This document shows, piece by piece, positions 18,590 through 56,406 of a stretch of DNA of 60,523 bases. Numbering within the stretch: the stretch's first letter is position 1; the number at the start of each line of letters is the position of its first letter. The translations under genes were made by a program, and so were the position numbers. Below the pieces are notes generated by a model. The model had not been told where the DNA came from and ran no database searches. It saw nothing but the letters and a program-made list of their open reading frames with translations. Source of the DNA: Candidatus Eremiobacteraceae bacterium (GTDB lineage: Bacteria > Vulcanimicrobiota > Vulcanimicrobiia > Eremiobacterales > Eremiobacteraceae); the NCBI GenBank assembly GCA_035314825.1, contig DATFYX010000007.1, positions 1 to 60,523 on the forward strand. The letters are read 5' to 3'.

Positions 18590-19282
18590 CTAGTTCGTCG
18601 TCCTCAGGAACGCCTCGATCGCGGGATTCACGAGATCGGGGCGTTGCGCCATCGCCAGGTGGCCGGCGCCGGGTACCTCGAGAAGTTGACTGCTGCCGAG
18701 GTGCTCGTGCAAGTAGCGCGAGTATTTCGGCGGTGTCAGCCCGTCTTCGCCGCCGACGACGATCAACGTCGGCGCGGCGACTCCTGGTAGCCGCGGCATG
18801 ATGTCAAACTCGTTGCACGCCGCGTAGTCGGTACGCGTCGCCCTTTGACCTACCGTCTCGTGCCACTGCTGCACCCGCTGACGCAATTCGGCTGGCGCGT
18901 TCGCCGACAGCGCGTAATCCACGAGCGCCGGAATGCATGCAGGCCATTGGCGGTCGAGCATATCGAAGATGGCCTGGCCGACACGTAGGCGGGCGCCGGT
19001 GCCGATCAGGATGAGGCCGGCCGCGTGGTCCGGATAGCGCAGCGCCCACTCCATGGCGATCGCTCCGCCCAGCGAGTTGCCCCCCACGACTGCTTTGCCT
19101 GCGCCCGCGCCGCGGATCGAACGTCCCAGCCAATCGGCCATGTCGCCGACGCTCGCGAGCGGCTCGCCGTCCGGGTGCCCGGGCAGCGACAGCGCGACCG
19201 AGCCTGGGAACGCCTCGACTTGCGCGCGGAAGCTATCCTGCGTGTAGCCCGAGCCGTGGACCCAGTACAGGCGTTGCAGCAT
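18590..19282 (-). CDS. Alpha/beta hydrolase
   Basis: 230 aa from the ATG giving MLQRLYWVHGSGY. Oxyanion HGSG near the N terminus, nucleophile elbow GNSLGGAIA, the acid in VGGEDGLTPP and the His in PGAGHLAMAQRP. Fits small esterase/lactonase-like hydrolases; substrate unknown. The frame stays open upstream for over 1.4 kb on this strand, but that is the shadow of the nuclease gene. Confidence 0.85.
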   Translation of the reverse strand: MLQRLYWVHGSGYTQDSFRAQVEAFPGSVALSLPGHPDGEPLASVGDMADWLGRSIRGAGAGKAVVGGNSLGGAIAMEWALRYPDHAAGLILIGTGARLRVGQAIFDMLDRQWPACIPALVDYALSANAPAELRQRVQQWHETVGQRATRTDYAACNEFDIMPRLPGVAAPTLIVVGGEDGLTPPKYSRYLHEHLGSSQLLEVPGAGHLAMAQRPDLVNPAIEAFLRTTN

Positions 19283-19325
19283 CCGCGCGGGTTCGGGCGT
19301 CGCGAGGTCCGGTCCGCTCCTGGCC

Positions 19326-19352
19326 GTCGAATGAATTCGACCCCTCCATAGG
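19326..19352 (+). repeat. Dispersed palindrome family 1, intergenic copy
   Basis: Core GTCGAAT-GA-ATTCGAC at 19326-19341 with tail CCCTCCATAGG. It lies in the 117-bp gap between the divergent hydrolase and nuclease genes. Confidence 0.75.
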
Positions 19353-19384
19353 CGCAAATCCCAGGACATCGTACACATGTTCGA

Positions 19385-19398
19385 CGAACCTACGTTCG
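19385..19398. promoter_or_regulatory. Candidate LexA (SOS) box before the DEDD/GIY-YIG nuclease
   Basis: CGAAC-CTAC-GTTCG, a perfect match to the Gram-positive/actinobacterial SOS box core CGAAC-N4-GTTCG. It ends 1 bp before the ATG at 19400. Confidence 0.55.
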
Positions 19399-19399
19399 C

Positions 19400-21220
19400 A
19401 TGCTGGACGTCGCGGGCGCTGTCGCGTTCGAGAAGCTTGACCTCTGGTCGTGCCCATTTGCCGTGATCGATATCGAGACCACCGGCAGCGTCGCGGGCAA
19501 GCATGCGGTCACCGAGATCGCGATGGTCCACGTCGTCGAGGGCCGGCTCGCCAAACGCTGGCGCTCGTTCGTCAATCCACGCCAGCCGATTCCGCGTTTC
19601 ATCACCGCGCTCACCGGCATCACCGATGAGATGGTCGCGGGAGCTCCGCTCATCGGCCGGCTGCTGCCCGACGTCGTCGATTTCATCGGGGACGCGATCG
19701 TCGTCGGCCACAACGTGCGCTTCGACGCGGGTTTCATCGAGCACGAGCTGCGCGCGCACGGCTATCCGGGCCTTGCCAATCCGACCGTCGACACGCTCGT
19801 GCTCGCGCGGCGCACGATCGCCGAGGTCGCCAACTACCGGCTCGGCACCCTGACGCGCGAGTTGGGGATCGACGTCGAGCGCCATCATCGCGCGCTCGCA
19901 GATGCGACGGCGACCGCGCAACTGCTCGTCCACTGCATCCGCAAGCTCGAAGATCACGGCGTTTTCACATACGGCTCGCTGCTCGAGTACTTGCGCACGC
20001 GCGCCCAGCCCCGCCGGCGCCCGTCCTCCGCGCGCAGCTATCCTCCGGCCGCGCAACTGCCGGTTTGGACCTCGATCCTGCTCGACGAGCTGGCGCACGT
20101 GCCTTCCAAACCCGGCGTTTACCTGCTCAAGGATGCGGGCGACAGCGTCGTCTACGTCGGCAAGTCGCGCAATCTGCGCCAGCGCCTGCGCGCGTACGCC
20201 ACGGCCGGCGCGCCCGCGGGCGCCAAGCTGCAAGCGCTGCGCGGCGTCGTGGCGTCTTTCGACTATCTGGTCACGGGCTCGGAATTCGAGGCGTTGCTGC
20301 TCGAAGCGCAACTGGTGCGCCAGCACAACCCGCCGTTCAACGCCTTGCTGCGCAACTTCAAGGAGTTCGCGTTCATCAAACTCGAGCGGGGGCATCACGG
20401 CCGCGTGCTGACGACCACCCGGCTGGCGGCCGACGGGGCGCAGTACTACGGCCCGTATCGGAGCATGGCGGCCGCGCGCGCCGCGGTGGCTGCGCTGCAA
20501 GACGCGCTCGGCTTGCGCGGCGTCGACGCTCCGTCGGACGACGGACTGGCGCTGCCGCCCGGACGGGCCGAGGCGCTGGTGGACGAGGCGATCGCGTTCT
20601 TGGAAGGTACCGCGGACGACGTGCTGCTGTGCACGGCGCGCCGGCGCGACGAGGCGGCGGCCCGGGGCCGGCATGACGTCGCCGCGCGCGAAGAGCAGCG
20701 CCTTGAGCGCCTGCGCCGCTTGCGCGCGAGCCACGCCAGTCTCGAATTCGCTGCCGGTCTTAACGTGCTCGTCCTGGCCCCATCGACCGATCCGGCGCTG
20801 GAGCAGTGCTATCTGTTCTGCGGCGGGCGCCTGGCCGGCCGCTGCGGCCTGCCGCGACGCCTACCGCAGCGCGACGCGGCCCGTGCGGCGCTCGCGCAGC
20901 TGCTGCGCGAACGCTACAAACCGACGACGGCGCCTCATTCGTTCATGCGCCAAGAGGAGATCGATCAGATCTCGATCCTCGCGACGTGGTATCGCGAGCG
21001 CCGCGAAGGTCTCTCGTACGTCGATCTGCCCGGCATCGATCCAACCGAGAGCACGGCAGCCGGCTGGGCCGCCGCTATCCTTGACGGGCAGGCGCTAGAC
21101 GTGGGTTGGGAAGTACCAAAGAATCAGGGCGAACAACAGCGCGAAGCCGGCCGCCAAGAAATAGAACAGGGCGGCTGCCCCGTTGTCATCGGCGACGCGG
21201 TGCTCGACATGGCTGGTTGA
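19400..21220 (+). CDS. DEDD exonuclease fused to UvrC-like GIY-YIG nuclease
   Basis: 606 aa. Residues ~18-190 are a DnaQ-type exonuclease: FAVIDIETTG (DxE), HNVRFDAGF and HHRALADA (DEDDh set). Residues ~235-320 are a GIY-YIG endonuclease like the UvrC N terminus and Cho: KPGVYLLKDAG, VVYVGKSRNLRQRL, then a UvrC-like GSEFEALLLEAQLV segment and a C-terminal region similar to Cho/UvrC. Such fusions are known in actinobacteria and relatives and are thought to act in excision repair. A LexA-like box abuts the start codon, matching the SOS control of E. coli cho. The last ~40 residues overlap a possible antisense membrane microprotein. Confidence 0.92.
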   Translation: MLDVAGAVAFEKLDLWSCPFAVIDIETTGSVAGKHAVTEIAMVHVVEGRLAKRWRSFVNPRQPIPRFITALTGITDEMVAGAPLIGRLLPDVVDFIGDAIVVGHNVRFDAGFIEHELRAHGYPGLANPTVDTLVLARRTIAEVANYRLGTLTRELGIDVERHHRALADATATAQLLVHCIRKLEDHGVFTYGSLLEYLRTRAQPRRRPSSARSYPPAAQLPVWTSILLDELAHVPSKPGVYLLKDAGDSVVYVGKSRNLRQRLRAYATAGAPAGAKLQALRGVVASFDYLVTGSEFEALLLEAQLVRQHNPPFNALLRNFKEFAFIKLERGHHGRVLTTTRLAADGAQYYGPYRSMAAARAAVAALQDALGLRGVDAPSDDGLALPPGRAEALVDEAIAFLEGTADDVLLCTARRRDEAAARGRHDVAAREEQRLERLRRLRASHASLEFAAGLNVLVLAPSTDPALEQCYLFCGGRLAGRCGLPRRLPQRDAARAALAQLLRERYKPTTAPHSFMRQEEIDQISILATWYRERREGLSYVDLPGIDPTESTAAGWAAAILDGQALDVGWEVPKNQGEQQREAGRQEIEQGGCPVVIGDAVLDMAG

Positions 21221-37253: not shown

Positions 37254-40200
37254 TTAGGAACAGCCCATGCTGCGGCCGCAGCTATCGCAGACGTAGCAGG
37301 CGCCGTTGCGGCGCGTGATCGAGCCGCATACGTCGCACAGCGGTGCGTCGCCCATCATCGCCGCCATCTGCGCCTCGCGCGAGCGGACGGCGGCGAGGTG
37401 CGCGGCCAGCGTCGGATCCATGATGGCGGACGTCTGCGCAGCTTGGCTCGCGCCAGAACCGTGCGCGCCGTTGGCGCCATTGGCGCTCTTGATGCGTGGG
37501 TTATTTCCCGGCCCGGCATTCGGGCCGCCATGGCCGTTGCCCGGATCGTCGTGCACCTGCTGTGCGGCGACATGCGCCTCGAACTCGGCTTGCGCCGCGT
37601 CTTCGTGGGTGACGGCGTCGACATCGCGGTCCTCCGGCTTGACCTGGACGAAGTCGGTGCGTCCGAGATATTCCATGCCGAGCACGCGGAAGATGTAGTC
37701 GATCACGCTAGTCGCGTGTTTGATGTTGGGATGGTCGACGAAGCCGTTGGGCTCGAAGCGCGTGAACACGAACTTGTCCACGAACTCCTCGAGCGGTACG
37801 CCGTATTGCAGACCGATCGAAACAGCTATAGCAAAGCAATTACCCGTGAGCACGCCCCCTTCAAGCACAAATGTGCTCGTGGTCGGCTCGACGACGCAAT
37901 AGACAGGTTCTTGGCCATCGAGCGGCTCGATGGATTCTACAAAATACGGCAGCATCGTTTGACGCGCTGTAATCCGCCAAAGGGGCGCAGTGCGCGGTCC
38001 GAAGTTGGTCGGCTTGTCGTTCATCGAGACACCGGTTATCGTGTACCCGTAGAGCGGCGCATTGGCGATGAACCACTTGGCGGCTTCTTGATTGCTCGTA
38101 CAGAGGAGTTCGGCGCCGCGGCAGTTCGAGCCGCCATCGGCGCTCATCCATCCTCTTATAAAGCTCGCCACGTAGGCACGGCTGTGTCGACTGGTATCAG
38201 GCAAGGCCTTAAGCGCTATGTCAGGCGATATGAACGTAAGACGCGGATCTCCGTGCAAAGAAGGCGGATGGACGATGGTATGCGCGAGGCCTGCCAGCAC
38301 TGGTAAGTGTGCTTGGTCCTTGGCGCCGCATAGCCTCAAGTGGTAGCGCTGCGGATAGTGGACGTGCTGGTCACCGTCGCCGAACACAAACCCGTGCATG
38401 AAGCCTTCAGGATCGAGTTCGCTGACACACTCGATTCGGGCTGCGCCGAGACAGTCGCCAACTTTGAGAGACGTCGTTACCGATCCATCCTCGAGAACCC
38501 AGCGGTGATTCGGCGTGACGGTAAAGGTGCGCCTGAAAGCGCTTCCCTTACTACCGATCGTCTTGAGGACAACACGTTGAATTGGCTGCTCGCCGAACTC
38601 AACTACCCAGCCGCGTCGGCGAAGTCCATCAGCGCACGTAACGGTCACTGCTTGGCCGGCCTTGGACTTGAGCGTAACAAGAGAATTGCCGTCGAAGAAA
38701 CGTGTGTCGCCGGTAAAGCAATTCATAAGGCTTCTGAACGACGCGCCTTCTTTGTGCAGGTCGACGAAGATCTCGCCAAGCGTGCCATCGGCGTATTCGC
38801 CGGTCCGTAGGAAGACCGTGTGACCCGAGATCTTCGCCTTTTGCGTCCAGCCGCGGCGCTTGGCGGGCAGCCGGTTGCGCTCGATGGCTTTGGCGAATTG
38901 GCGTTTGAAATCGGTCGAGGTCGTGTTGGCGAGGATGCGCTGGGCGGCGGCGAGGATCTCGTCGGGGCGCAGCTCTTCGGCGCGCTGCTTGCGAGCAGCC
39001 TCGAGCTGCTTGGCGAACTCCTCCGAAAGTGCTAGCTGTTTGTCGTCCTCTTGCGCGGTCTTGTCCGAGCTTTTGTTCGAGAGCGGCTGCGAGAGTTTCG
39101 AACCATCGCGGTAGAGCGCCATGGCTTTGATGCCGAGTTCCCACGAACGCATGTAGGCCTCTTTGATCTCGTCGACAGTCGCCTCGTTGGGCATATTGAT
39201 CGTCTTGGAGATCGCACCGCTGATAAACGGCTGCGCGGCCGCCATCATGCGGACGTGGCCCATGTGATGGATGAAGCGCTTGCCGAGCTTGCCGCACCGG
39301 TTGGCGCAGTCAAACGCGGGATAGTGCTCCTCTTTGAGGTGTGGTGCGCCCTCGATCGTCATCGTGCCGCAGATGTAGTTGTTCGCCGTCTCGATCTCTT
39401 CACGCGAGTAGCCAAGCGCGCGCAGCAGGTCGAAGTCCGTCGCCGTGTATTGTTCGGCGTCGAAGCCGAGACGCTGCATCGTCGCCTCACCCAGCGTGAA
39501 CTGGTTGAACGCAAAACCGACCTCAAACGCTGACGGAAGCGCCTTTTCGACCTTGGCGATGTCCTCATCGGTGAACCCGCGTGCTTTAAGCGTCTCTGCG
39601 TTCACGTAAGGAGCGCCGTAGAGCGAGCCGGTACCCTTCGCGTAGCGGATGACGTCGTCCATCTGCGTTTGTGTGTAGCCGAGGTTGCGCAGAGCTTCAG
39701 GGATGGACTGGTTGATGATCTTGAAGTAGCCGCCGCCGGCGAGCTTCTTGAACTTGACGAGTGCAAAGTCGGGTTCGATACCGGTGGTGTCGCAGTCCAT
39801 GATCAGGCCGATCGTGCCGGTCGGCGCGATGCATGTGGCCTGCGCGTTGCGATAACCGTGCAGTTTGCCTAGCTCCACTGCGCGATCCCAGCTGTCGCGC
39901 GCCGCGGCCAGCAGGTAAGACGGGGCGAGCGACGGGTCTATGCCCATCGGGATGACCGCGAGCTCCTCGTACTCGGACGCCGTGGAGTTGTACGCGGCGC
40001 GCTTGTGATTGCGCATGACGCGCAGCATCGAGTCCGCGTTGTCCTTGTAGCGCGGGAACGGGCCGAGATCGCGGGCCAGCTCAGCCGATGTCGCGTACGA
40101 TTCGCCGGTCAGCATAGCGGAGATGACGCCGGCCGTCGCGAGTGCGCGCGGCGAGTCATACGGAATACCCGAGACCATGAGCAGCGTACCGAGATTCGCG

Positions 40201-43200
40201 TAGCCGAGGCCAAGCGTGCGGTATTCGTACGACTTACGGGCGATCTCGGGGCTTGGGAACTGAGCCATCAGCACCGATATCTCGAGCACGACGGTCCACA
40301 GCCGAATCGCGTGCAGATAGCTATCGACGTCAAACTGACTCTTAGACGAGTCATAGAACTTCATCAGGTTGATGCTGGCCAAGTTGCAGGCCGTATCATC
40401 TAAAAACATATATTCAGAACAATTATGAACATAGAAACCATTTGCGTCAAAAGCGTTCTTGCCAGGCACTGTGCAATCAAAAACGGGCTTAACGCCCAGC
40501 GGCGTTATGTCCATGACCACCGCCGTCTGGCGGAACGGACTTAGCTCCGTCGTCAGGGCGACATCACCAACGCTGTCTCTTGAGGCCGCGAAGACTAGGC
40601 GAGAGACGTGGCTATGCAGCGCCAGCCGTTTACCGGAAACGATTTCTCGAAGCGGGAGCCAAGTTTCCGAGTCATCATCATTGACAGCTAAGAACAGATG
40701 GTCCTCAGTTGCTTTGACAGCGAAGCCGTCACGCGTTCGAAGCTCGTAGACTTGCTTGACGCCGGTTGGAAAGAAGCCTTCCGGCGTGCTTTGATACTCA
40801 ACGCCGTCAACGAGCGCAGTGAACTGCCGTCCAACGAGATCCGAGACTACAACATAGCCGTTGCTCGTCGCGATTCGGGTATCTGCCGTCACGCACGGAT
40901 TGCTCGCGCGGATGCGACCGCCCGCTGGGCACGTATGCCACGAGTTGATGATATCGTCGAACTGCACGCCAGGATCTGCGCAACTCCACGCCGCGCGCGC
41001 GATCTCATCCCAAAGGTCGCGTGCACGAACTGAACGCGCGATTGACTTGTCTTTCCGCCATAACAGATCCCATGTTCCGTCTTTGCGCACCGCATCGACG
41101 AATTTGTCCGAGACGCGCACGGTGTTGTTAGAGTTCTGACCGGAGACGGTCTGATAGGCATCGCCTTCGTATGAACTGGCATAGCCGGCCGCGATGAGCG
41201 CCGCGACTTTCTTTTCTTCCTCGACCTTCCAGTTGATGAATTTCTCGATGTCAGGGTGATCCATATCGAGGATGACCATCTTGGCCGCGCGTCGCGTGGT
41301 GCCGCCGCTCTTGATGGCGCCGGCCGCTCGATCGCCTACACGCAAAAAAGACATCAAACCGCTCGAGGTGCCGCCCCCCGAAAGTTTCTCGCCCTCAGCG
41401 CGAAGATTGGAGAAATTAGTACCGGTGTTGTGTATGACGACGAGACCACGCTCACCAGCCAGGTAGGTATTTGTTTTCCGCGTTGTAAGATCGTTGAATG
41501 GAACATCCTCGACGCAAGGGGCAACCTCCGTGACGAACGTGACGCCCTCGGCGACGAGGCGAATCCGTTCGAGTTCCGCGTCGACTTGTTCCTCAGGCCG
41601 AGCAGCAATGGCCGCAAGGACCTTGGCGGGATTAACGATTCCCTCGTATACAAGCCGCCCGACGTGAAAACGCTCACCTCCCGAAAAGCCATGGAGACCG
41701 TACTGGTCCCGTTCTGGGAAGACGCGCTCTCCGAGATCTGCGTCGATCGGCATGCACGTGTGACGGCGATTCTCATGTGCCGGGTCTTGTAAGGCTGCGG
41801 CATGCTTCGGCGTGGCAAGATTCTTCGCTACAGCTTGCGCGCGCCGAACGCTGGTCGATCGCCGGATGATCGCCGTTGAGAACGTATTTCCGTTCTTCAC
41901 AATGCCGCCGCCTAGACCAAGCAAAGAGGCCATCACCGCTACTTCTTCGACGAACGTTCGGCACTCCGACGTATAGTTCGCACGACCATCTGCGACGGTA
42001 CCATCGGAATCTATCAAGCCAGCAAGGAACGCGAGTTGCAGCTCCGAGTCGCCTGTCTTGATGAAATCCGGAACGGAAAGCGTCGCACCTTTGGCTCCGG
42101 GCGCATGCACGATTTCCGAAAAGAATGCTGTCGCCGCAGCCTTGGTGCACGTCAAGGATAGCCCCTTACTGCCTCGGCCGTCTTGCGAAATGGAGCTGCC
42201 TGCGCCGAAACGACTGCGAAGGATTCGCGCAGTGCGCTCTAACGGCTCGCGATCCTCGTCGTGGAACCGAAGACGTAGACTGCGATAGGTATACGCGCGG
42301 CCCCGCCGCACCGTGCGTTGACGGCGCCACCCTAAAGAACCGTCTCCGATGAAATAGCCGACGAGCCAAGCGATCTCGGTATCCGGCGTCACCGTCAGGT
42401 TCTTGCCGGTATGAAACCACGGTACTTTGTAAGAAAGCGGTTTGGCTGTGCTGTTGTTATCGATGTGACGCGTCGTTGAGGAGTTGGGACCGATCACTGC
42501 ATCACCACGGACAAGTTGATCTGCGCGGCGCTCCACGATATCGCGACCATCCCAAACCATGAAAGGATGCCACGCTGATACGGTCGCTCTGGCACCCGAG
42601 TCGAAGCTGACGGTTATCTTATCTTCTTTGGGAATTTCATATGACCAGACCAACTCGATCGGGTCCTCTACGATACGTCCGCTTTTCTTGTCAAGCGATA
42701 GCGTCTTGAGTCCCATGTCGCGGACATTGACAAATCGGCCTTTGCCATCAAAATTAACGACGGGCCGATGGCGCGAGACTTCGTCGAACAGTTCCCCCAG
42801 CCGAACGAGCCCGCGGCCGGCGACTGGTACAAACGCACGTCCGGAAATGCAGCCACTTCCGTACTTGAACAATCGAGCCTCGCGGACCCATAGATCCATG
42901 ATACCGTTATCGTTGACAAGATCGTCATCGACCGACTGGATGAAACAATTGTGGACCACGACGCTGTTTGTTAGGAAGTTGTGACTATCAGTTTCAATGT
43001 CATAAACGACTTCCTCGGCCAGTTGTTCAATGGACTCGATCTCTACCGGATATAGTGCCGGCGCCGTTAGTGTTTGCAGCCGACTCCCAGTGGCCTCTGC
43101 AATGCCACGCGCAACTTCAGCCACTAAAGGATTTTGAAGATTCTGTCTGTCCAAGAAATGCAGTGTCCGAACAAGTTCCGCATCAAAACGACGAACGAGC

Positions 43201-43982
43201 CGCATGCCAGGTGTCAGGTTAGAGACTTCGGACCAAAGGAATCCACGCTGTGGGTCGTCGACAAGGACGAGATGATCGGCCGTAGCTTCAATGAACTTGC
43301 CAAGCGCCAGATTCACGCGAAAAACGCGCTTGATTCCATTGTTCTTCGCTGCGCGAACGTGGGTGATTCCCTCTTTATCGTATACAGCTAATCCAACGAG
43401 ATTGCGTCGATAAATCTCTTCGATTGGCATTGGACCTTGTAAAGTGTCGACTATTGCCCGGCCTGGCAAGCACGCATGGGGTTGTGGATGCGTGTAGGAA
43501 TCTTTCGCGCGCGTCAGCTCTTTCGTGTCGGGATCGACGAAGTAGTGGCCCTGTGAGGGACCAGTGATCCCATACGCGTAGGCGAGGCCTGTGTTGAACC
43601 ATTGCGGCGAGTTCGGCGCCGCCATCTGGTTGATCAGCATGTGCGTGATCTCGGCGTCGAACGCGGCAGCGTCTTCCTCGCTGTCGAAATACTTGTAGCG
43701 GCGTCCCCAATCGGTCCAGCAACCGGCGAGGCGGCGCACCACCTGGCGCGCCGAGGTCTCGCGACCGAGCGACCCATCCGGCTGCGGCACGCCGGCTTTG
43801 CGGAAATACTTCTGCGCGAGGATGTCGGTGGCGACTTGCGACCAGGCCTTGGGCACCTCGATATCGTGCATCTCGAACACGACTGTGCCGTCGGGCTCCC
43901 GGATGACCGAAGACCTACGATCCCAGTCGATCGTGTCGAGCGGATCGATGCCGGGTTGGGTGAAGCGCCGCTGGATCTTCAT
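37254..43982 (-). CDS. nrdJ: B12-dependent (class II) ribonucleotide reductase NrdJ interrupted by four inteins
   Basis: 2242 aa precursor. The four in-frame inteins (175, 475, 158 and 294 aa) sum to 1102 aa, leaving a 1140-aa mature enzyme, the normal NrdJ size. Extein landmarks: HACFIQSV (redox Cys), ASNPCSEY with the thiyl-radical Cys (residue 1188) 11 residues before ACNLAS (Cys1199), which equals the C322-C333 spacing of Thermotoga maritima NrdJ; APTGTIGLIMDCDT; and a C-terminal zinc-ribbon tail ending CDSCGRSMGCS. It makes deoxyribonucleotides using adenosylcobalamin, with or without oxygen. Every splice junction rejoins conserved NrdJ sequence. A -10/-35 pair and a LexA-like box lie upstream. 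nrdR is not nearby. Confidence 0.95.
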   Translation of the reverse strand: MKIQRRFTQPGIDPLDTIDWDRRSSVIREPDGTVVFEMHDIEVPKAWSQVATDILAQKYFRKAGVPQPDGSLGRETSARQVVRRLAGCWTDWGRRYKYFDSEEDAAAFDAEITHMLINQMAAPNSPQWFNTGLAYAYGITGPSQGHYFVDPDTKELTRAKDSYTHPQPHACLPGRAIVDTLQGPMPIEEIYRRNLVGLAVYDKEGITHVRAAKNNGIKRVFRVNLALGKFIEATADHLVLVDDPQRGFLWSEVSNLTPGMRLVRRFDAELVRTLHFLDRQNLQNPLVAEVARGIAEATGSRLQTLTAPALYPVEIESIEQLAEEVVYDIETDSHNFLTNSVVVHNCFIQSVDDDLVNDNGIMDLWVREARLFKYGSGCISGRAFVPVAGRGLVRLGELFDEVSRHRPVVNFDGKGRFVNVRDMGLKTLSLDKKSGRIVEDPIELVWSYEIPKEDKITVSFDSGARATVSAWHPFMVWDGRDIVERRADQLVRGDAVIGPNSSTTRHIDNNSTAKPLSYKVPWFHTGKNLTVTPDTEIAWLVGYFIGDGSLGWRRQRTVRRGRAYTYRSLRLRFHDEDREPLERTARILRSRFGAGSSISQDGRGSKGLSLTCTKAAATAFFSEIVHAPGAKGATLSVPDFIKTGDSELQLAFLAGLIDSDGTVADGRANYTSECRTFVEEVAVMASLLGLGGGIVKNGNTFSTAIIRRSTSVRRAQAVAKNLATPKHAAALQDPAHENRRHTCMPIDADLGERVFPERDQYGLHGFSGGERFHVGRLVYEGIVNPAKVLAAIAARPEEQVDAELERIRLVAEGVTFVTEVAPCVEDVPFNDLTTRKTNTYLAGERGLVVIHNTGTNFSNLRAEGEKLSGGGTSSGLMSFLRVGDRAAGAIKSGGTTRRAAKMVILDMDHPDIEKFINWKVEEEKKVAALIAAGYASSYEGDAYQTVSGQNSNNTVRVSDKFVDAVRKDGTWDLLWRKDKSIARSVRARDLWDEIARAAWSCADPGVQFDDIINSWHTCPAGGRIRASNPCVTADTRIATSNGYVVVSDLVGRQFTALVDGVEYQSTPEGFFPTGVKQVYELRTRDGFAVKATEDHLFLAVNDDDSETWLPLREIVSGKRLALHSHVSRLVFAASRDSVGDVALTTELSPFRQTAVVMDITPLGVKPVFDCTVPGKNAFDANGFYVHNCSEYMFLDDTACNLASINLMKFYDSSKSQFDVDSYLHAIRLWTVVLEISVLMAQFPSPEIARKSYEYRTLGLGYANLGTLLMVSGIPYDSPRALATAGVISAMLTGESYATSAELARDLGPFPRYKDNADSMLRVMRNHKRAAYNSTASEYEELAVIPMGIDPSLAPSYLLAAARDSWDRAVELGKLHGYRNAQATCIAPTGTIGLIMDCDTTGIEPDFALVKFKKLAGGGYFKIINQSIPEALRNLGYTQTQMDDVIRYAKGTGSLYGAPYVNAETLKARGFTDEDIAKVEKALPSAFEVGFAFNQFTLGEATMQRLGFDAEQYTATDFDLLRALGYSREEIETANNYICGTMTIEGAPHLKEEHYPAFDCANRCGKLGKRFIHHMGHVRMMAAAQPFISGAISKTINMPNEATVDEIKEAYMRSWELGIKAMALYRDGSKLSQPLSNKSSDKTAQEDDKQLALSEEFAKQLEAARKQRAEELRPDEILAAAQRILANTTSTDFKRQFAKAIERNRLPAKRRGWTQKAKISGHTVFLRTGEYADGTLGEIFVDLHKEGASFRSLMNCFTGDTRFFDGNSLVTLKSKAGQAVTVTCADGLRRRGWVVEFGEQPIQRVVLKTIGSKGSAFRRTFTVTPNHRWVLEDGSVTTSLKVGDCLGAARIECVSELDPEGFMHGFVFGDGDQHVHYPQRYHLRLCGAKDQAHLPVLAGLAHTIVHPPSLHGDPRLTFISPDIALKALPDTSRHSRAYVASFIRGWMSADGGSNCRGAELLCTSNQEAAKWFIANAPLYGYTITGVSMNDKPTNFGPRTAPLWRITARQTMLPYFVESIEPLDGQEPVYCVVEPTTSTFVLEGGVLTGNCFAIAVSIGLQYGVPLEEFVDKFVFTRFEPNGFVDHPNIKHATSVIDYIFRVLGMEYLGRTDFVQVKPEDRDVDAVTHEDAAQAEFEAHVAAQQVHDDPGNGHGGPNAGPGNNPRIKSANGANGAHGSGASQAAQTSAIMDPTLAAHLAAVRSREAQMAAMMGDAPLCDVCGSITRRNGACYVCDSCGRSMGCS
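37839..38720 (-). mobile_element. NrdJ intein 4 with LAGLIDADG-like endonuclease and Gly-Asn C terminus (residues 1755-2048)
   Basis: 294 aa. Begins Cys1755 (CFTGDTRFFD), block B TVTPNHRW, motifs FMHGFVFGDGDQ and FIRGWMSADGG, and ends EGGVLTGN before Cys2049. Splicing gives SLMN|CFAIAVSIG. The penultimate residue is Gly instead of the usual His. Confidence 0.92.
40422..40895 (-). mobile_element. NrdJ intein 3 (mini-intein, residues 1030-1187)
   Basis: 158 aa. Begins Cys1030 (CVTADTRIAT), block B ATEDHLFL and ends NGFYVHN before Cys1188. Splicing gives ASNP|CSEYMF, placing the thiyl-radical Cys as the +1 splicing nucleophile. No endonuclease motif. Confidence 0.95.
41427..42851 (-). mobile_element. 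NrdJ intein 2 with LAGLIDADG homing endonuclease (residues 378-852)
   Basis: 475 aa. Begins Cys378 (CISGRAFVPV); block B is TVSAWHPF; two endonuclease motifs LVGYFIGDGSLG and FLAGLIDSDGTVAD; ends GLVVIHN before extein Thr853. Splicing joins KYGSG|TGTNFS, the conserved NrdJ sequence. The row 42601-42660 is 25/60 GC, well under the about 67 percent seen in a neighbour such as 45421-45480. Confidence 0.95.
42948..43472 (-). mobile_element. NrdJ intein 1 (mini-intein, residues 171-345)
   Basis: 175 aa. Begins Cys171 (CLPGRAIVDT, block A), block B ATADHLVL and ends DSHNFLTNSVVVHN before extein Cys346. There is no LAGLIDADG motif. The flanking extein reads QPHA|CFIQSV, so splicing restores the conserved redox-Cys motif. 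Confidence 0.93.
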
Positions 43983-44155: not shown

Positions 44156-44169
44156 CGAACGGCCGTTCG
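44156..44169. promoter_or_regulatory. Candidate LexA (SOS) box upstream of nrdJ
   Basis: CGAAC-GGCC-GTTCG, a perfect 14-bp palindrome and exact CGAAC-N4-GTTCG match, 9 bp upstream of the -35 hexamer. Confidence 0.55.
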
Positions 44170-55830: not shown

Positions 55831-56406
55831 ATGTCAAAGCTATTGAGTTTCATCTTGATCGCGTGCGCCGCGCTGCTTTTCGCCCGATCGAGCGTGCTGG
55901 CCGCCAGCGGCGGCGCGGCGGCTTCCGGCGGAAATCTCCTCCATGACGGCGACTTCTCAGCCGCGCCGAACCCCGGTTCGTACACCACGTATTCAAAGGG
56001 ATCGACCGCGATCACGGGCTGGGTCGTCACGAAGGCGACTGTCGATCTGATCGGCACCTACTGGAGCGCGCCCGGCGGTCTGCGCAGCGTCGATCTCGAT
56101 GGCACCCCCGGCTTCGGCGCGATCGCCCAGACCATCGCGACGACTCCCGGAAAGACATACTCCGTGAGTTTTCTGTTGTCAGGCAACGATGAGTGTCCTC
56201 CGACCGTCAAACACATGCGCGCCAGCGCGGCCGGTGTGCACGCCGATTATACGGTGAACGGGGCCGGAGTGCGTAAGAACGCGTGGGTGCACAAGACCTG
56301 GACCTTCAAGGCATCGGCTTCGAAGACGACGCTGCAGTTCGAAAGCAAAGATACGAGCGGCGGCGAGTGCGGCCCAGTGGTCGCCGACATCCGGGCGACC
56401 GGTTAG
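55831..56406 (+). CDS. Secreted DUF642/choice-of-anchor C-like protein
   Basis: 191 aa. Signal peptide of about 24 residues ending VLA-A. The body NLLHDGDFSAAPNPGSYTTY, then STAITGWVVTKATVDLIG and LRSVDLDGTPGFGAIAQTIATTPGKTYSVSFLLSGN are the beta-sandwich pattern of DUF642/choice-of-anchor C proteins, usually cell-surface carbohydrate-associated. Inserted between leuC and leuD. Confidence 0.8.
   Translation: MSKLLSFILIACAALLFARSSVLAASGGAAASGGNLLHDGDFSAAPNPGSYTTYSKGSTAITGWVVTKATVDLIGTYWSAPGGLRSVDLDGTPGFGAIAQTIATTPGKTYSVSFLLSGNDECPPTVKHMRASAAGVHADYTVNGAGVRKNAWVHKTWTFKASASKTTLQFESKDTSGGECGPVVADIRATG

Follow-up and report, generated by a model that had tools for sequence, protein, structure and literature searches.

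The gene for a fusion nuclease consisting of a DEDDh exonuclease (DnaQ) and a GIY-YIG (Cho/UvrC-like) domain in an uncultured soil bacterium of Candidatus Eremiobacterota is very probably repressed by LexA, via an operator of the Bacillus/Actinobacteria type (CGAACN4GTTCG) that is doubled within the genus. The gene is located in the window, i.e., the whole analysed stretch of 60,523 nucleotides, and the coordinates of the relevant features are collected in Table 1. As an in silico prediction, the assignment of a LexA operator to this gene is well supported, and the box pair would fit an ordinary SOS response.

Table 1. Features of the window around the fusion nuclease gene and the nrdJ gene.
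Feature	Position	Strand	Sequence	Remarks
Alpha/beta hydrolase, divergent	18590..19282	-		Pfam Abhydrolase_6
Divergent promoter region	19283..19399			117 bp; holds both boxes; conserved GGnAT before box 1
Box 1	19370-19383; as 16 bp, 19369-19384		CGTACACATGTTCG; as 16 bp, TCGTACACATGTTCGA	predicted LexA-type operator, 1 mismatch
Box 2 (reported feature)	19385-19398		CGAACCTACGTTCG	predicted LexA-type operator, perfect CGAACN4GTTCG
DEDDh exonuclease (DnaQ)-GIY-YIG (Cho/UvrC-like) fusion nuclease	19400..21220	+		606 aa
nrdJ, class II ribonucleotide reductase	37254-43982	-		one open frame, 2242 aa
Perfect box upstream of nrdJ	44156-44169			about 174 bp from nrdJ start 43982

The fusion protein contains a Pfam RNase_T domain (residues 22–176) followed by a GIY-YIG domain (residues 238–311), and neither the RNase H domain nor the helix-hairpin-helix domain of UvrC was detected in it by Pfam. 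It aligned to solved structures of the PolC/DnaQ exonuclease and the N-terminal nuclease domain of UvrC. Judging from these alignments, the catalytic-type motifs of both domains are in place, namely D-x-E (DIETTG), HN..FD and HHRALxD of the exonuclease, as read from the alignment to the PolC exonuclease, and GVY/YVG together with the R and E residues of the GIY-YIG domain, as read from the alignment to UvrC (1yd6). NCBIfam assigned the protein to the PRK07883 family, and because its score of 394.5 bits against NF005906 did not reach the curated equivalog cut-off of 495, we regard it as related to, yet outside, the curated PRK07883 equivalogs. The fusion of DnaQ- and Cho/UvrC-like parts proposed in the sequence-only reading was therefore borne out by the Pfam domains, the family assignment, the structure alignments and the 29% identity of the GIY-YIG part to E. 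coli Cho over 242 aa. Because of the RNase_T exonuclease domain fused to its N terminus, the protein should be described as Cho-like and not as Cho. Its closest named relatives, with 80–82% identity across the full protein, are encoded in metagenome-assembled genomes of Candidatus Eremiobacterota. No in-frame ATG, GTG or TTG is present between the upstream stop codon and the ATG at 19400, which is thus well placed as the start codon.

The perfect box claimed in the sequence-only reading was confirmed from the sequence (box 2) and ends 1 bp before this ATG. However, that reading overlooked a second palindrome 15 bp upstream (box 1), which forms a tandem pair with box 2 and turned out to be the better conserved of the two. 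Both boxes are located at most 30 bp before the start codon. Neither of them is ideal by the standard of the lexA boxes described below, because the core of box 2 begins with C, where a purine is favoured in the family, and the left half of box 1 reads CGTAC instead of CGAAC. The genome (2.55 Mb) contains seven perfect boxes and five matches of a reversed control pattern; the perfect-box word alone is therefore weak evidence, and the significance of the boxes derives from their position and conservation instead of their number.

The designation as an SOS-type box was substantiated by the lexA gene of the same lineage. The LexA protein of the source genome comprises 204 aa and matches PF01726 and TIGR00498 (215 bits versus a cut-off of 111), and its gene is preceded by two boxes of the CGAACN4GTTYG type, TCGAACATATGTTCT and TCGAACAAACGTTTG. 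A corresponding box pair, spaced 58–63 bp apart, was found upstream of lexA in 10 genomes of the family, including the source genome, and in six genomes from two further families of the class, i.e., in every relative whose locus could be parsed. Because these autoregulation boxes are conserved this deeply, we identify CGAACN4GTTYG as this lineage's LexA box. Most of the lexA boxes follow an R-N-R-Y core (purine-N-purine-pyrimidine), as box 1 does. The GAAC-N4-GTTC box type is that of Bacillus subtilis and Mycobacterium tuberculosis, as cited in PMC3323433.

Whole-length orthologues of the fusion protein were detected in all 14 genomes of the source family and in none of 135 other genomes of the phylum (E ≤ 1e-40). 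The upstream DNA was readable for 13 of these orthologues, the contig of the remaining genome (G012) ending at the locus. Conservation of the box in close relatives had been set beforehand as the test of the operator claim, and in 13/13 readable orthologues the 63-bp stretch that ends at the start codon contained a box with no more than one mismatch. Dinucleotide-preserving shuffles gave an expected chance of about 0.5% per gene for such a box, and the probability that all 13 orthologues carry one by chance is negligible. Box 1 ends 3–21 bp before the assigned start codon in each of the 13 orthologues and mostly takes the form CGNAC-RNRY-GTTCG, with 8 of 14 positions invariant (C, G and C of the left half and the whole GTTCG) and the R-N-R-Y core kept in 12–13 of 13 cases. 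In an alignment of the 13 orthologues anchored on box 1, the DNA upstream of the box was essentially unconserved except for the adjoining GGnAT; across the family, conserved half-sites enclose a changing 4-bp core and are flanked by diverged sequence. The same applies within the genus, where box 1 shows the cores ACAT, GCGT and GTAT between half-sites which are fixed except for T or C at position 3, and where box 2 is perfect in all three members with the cores CTAC, TTGC and CTGC. Over the whole family, box 2 is recognisable with at most two mismatches in 8 of 13 orthologues and absent in the rest. Because box 1 is retained in 13/13 orthologues and box 2 only in 8/13, box 1 appears to be the core operator and box 2 a reinforcement. 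Fusion homologues from outside the phylum (two from Actinomycetota and four from Pseudomonadota) showed no clear LexA box at their starts.

We weighed three other explanations of the two palindromes against LexA control of the nuclease gene. They may be operators of a different regulator whose site resembles GAACN4GTTC, or LexA may act on them jointly with a further factor, as might be suspected from position 3 of box 1 (T, C or A), which is mostly unlike that of the lexA boxes. However, the same box type is found at lexA throughout the class and also at imuA, dinG/yoaA and nrdJ, and the R-N-R-Y core of box 1 is that of most lexA boxes, so that we consider this explanation unlikely. Even less probable is that the pair mainly controls the alpha/beta hydrolase gene, which is transcribed divergently from the same intergenic region, because a box lies no more than about 21 bp from the start of the nuclease gene in 13/13 genomes, whereas the boxes in the window are at least 87 bp away from the hydrolase start.

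The least credible of the three explanations is that the boxes arose by chance or as a by-product of coding sequence, with the true start codon located further upstream. The reading frame is indeed open over the 48 bp preceding the ATG and runs through both boxes, and the seven perfect boxes in the genome against five matches of the reversed control would by themselves be compatible with chance. Yet the conservation in 13/13 orthologues makes a chance origin negligible, and we rejected the coding explanation because the window's gene has no in-frame ATG, GTG or TTG upstream and because the distance and frame of the box relative to the start vary across the family while the half-sites stay fixed. 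LexA control of the fusion nuclease gene thus remains our preferred reading.

The boxes, their conservation, the LexA protein of the lineage with the same box type at its own gene, the protein domains and the structure alignments were directly observed or computed, and we infer from sequence the binding of LexA, the position of the promoter, the induction by damage and the biochemical role of the nuclease. In an undamaged cell, one LexA dimer would bind to box 1 and a second one to box 2, covering roughly positions 19369–19399. Core promoter, transcription start and start codon would thus all lie beneath the two dimers, which would keep RNA polymerase from initiating. A scan of the divergent region found no sigma-70-like promoter consensus. 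The 5' leader is presumably very short and possibly absent, which fits the proximity of boxes and ATG throughout the 13 genomes. The expectation of the sequence-only reading that LexA would directly block the start region is accordingly retained as a prediction for transcription initiation, but not for the start codon as such, as nothing suggests a block of translation. After DNA damage, RecA bound to single-stranded DNA would trigger the self-cleavage of LexA and so allow the nuclease to be synthesised. Its Cho-like GIY-YIG domain may then nick the DNA near the lesion, and the DnaQ-like domain would probably digest from the nick. This role is adopted from the mycobacterial fusion protein, for which a function in excision repair has been proposed, with the GIY-YIG domain making a nick and the exonuclease degrading the DNA from there through the lesion (PMC1564403).

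The mycobacterial and actinobacterial PRK07883 fusions show the same domain order, and the homologue from Tsukamurella shares 35% identity with the window protein over 357 aa. They differ in that two actinobacterial examples carry no box at the start, and the window protein falls below the curated cut-offs. With cho of E. coli and Salmonella, which codes for an SOS-induced 3'-incision endonuclease, the gene has in common the Cho-like GIY-YIG domain and the control by LexA, predicted in our case, whereas Cho contains no exonuclease domain and the proteobacterial gene is preceded by a single CTGTN8ACAG box. In Salmonella, the LexA box of ydjQ/cho directly adjoins the ATG (distance 0 bp), and nalidixic acid induces the gene 3.3-fold (PMC8072944). 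Upstream of E. coli cho we found only a box with one mismatch, 23 bp before the annotated GTG, a match of the quality expected by chance in the 3.5 kb concerned. In Bacteroidetes, a GIY-YIG exonuclease (COG0847), a relative of the proofreading subunit of polymerase III, was predicted as a LexA target by comparative genomics, with two motifs (PMC8565304), but it involves another LexA type and other box motifs, e.g., CTAA-N5-TTAG. The parallel to cho in a different lineage and with a different box type, which the sequence-only reading had drawn, is therefore supported, but it is not new, since LexA control of a GIY-YIG repair nuclease is already published for enterics (cho) and, as a prediction, for Bacteroidetes. 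Our case would extend this list by another lineage, which uses a box type of its own. The repeated capture of GIY-YIG nucleases by LexA suggests that cells benefit from their activity when DNA is damaged but are harmed by it, or do not need it, at other times. Because the fusion proteins are little studied, damage induction, if true, would point to their role. The operator type itself is that of the GAAC-N4-GTTC boxes of Bacillus subtilis and Mycobacterium, which belong to other phyla; a further difference from these is that recA is unboxed in the source family.

A limited search yielded no published description of LexA or the SOS response for Eremiobacterota/WPS-2 among the 20 best literature matches, and the analysis offers for this phylum a LexA box that can be tested and an initial list of SOS genes. 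Being a sample obtained with pattern and family searches, this list is incomplete. The imuA gene carries the same box 16 bp before its ATG, with a perfect TCGAACN4GTTCGA in three more genomes. A gene for a DinG/YoaA-type helicase has a box 2 bp from the ATG in the source genome and is boxed near the start in 8 of 13 genomes, the seven relatives within 45 bp. For nrdJ, a box was found 140–232 bp from the start in all 13 loci with a readable start, the perfect box at 44156-44169 of the window being among them. The nrdJ frame of the window contains an intein inserted after about residue 171, as indicated by N- and C-terminal splicing signals. In many relatives, the nrdJ match stops at residue 171, and frames of 1000–2100 aa are also present, so that the intein content seems to vary across the family. 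Upstream of recA, no convincing LexA-type box was present in the seven parsed genomes of the family, and sites with one mismatch were located inside the coding region. A recA gene apparently devoid of a box is unusual for an SOS regulon, and the SOS wiring may therefore differ in these bacteria. More tentatively, and with rather less than even confidence, we propose that operators of the LexA regulon of Eremiobacterota abut or cover the start codons of genes with little or no leader (those for the nuclease and the DinG/YoaA-type helicase), and that this regulon includes the class II ribonucleotide reductase and omits recA; the fused nuclease would then be specific to the family and have been put under LexA on or after its arrival.

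Some further sites were observed during these searches. CGAACATGTGTTTG (G000:C6:2288-2301) precedes the start of a dnaE gene in the source genome by about 11 bp. The encoded DnaE scored best with models of the replicative alpha subunit and not with the error-prone one; it would be surprising to find a main replicase under LexA. CGAACGTATGTTTG (G000:C67:30696-30709), likewise observed in the source genome, lies between the gene for Ku (non-homologous end joining) and a divergent ORF of 118 aa without a Pfam match, and SOS control of end joining is possible, as judged from this position. TCGAACAGGTGTTCGA (G000:C14:5052-5067) adjoins an ORF without a Pfam match; because the identical 16-mer recurs, on either strand, in four relatives (G001, G004, G011 and G013), it may mark a conserved gene of the regulon. 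Finally, a perfect CGAACCCCGGTTCG at 55967-55980 of the window is located inside a probable coding region and is probably due to chance.
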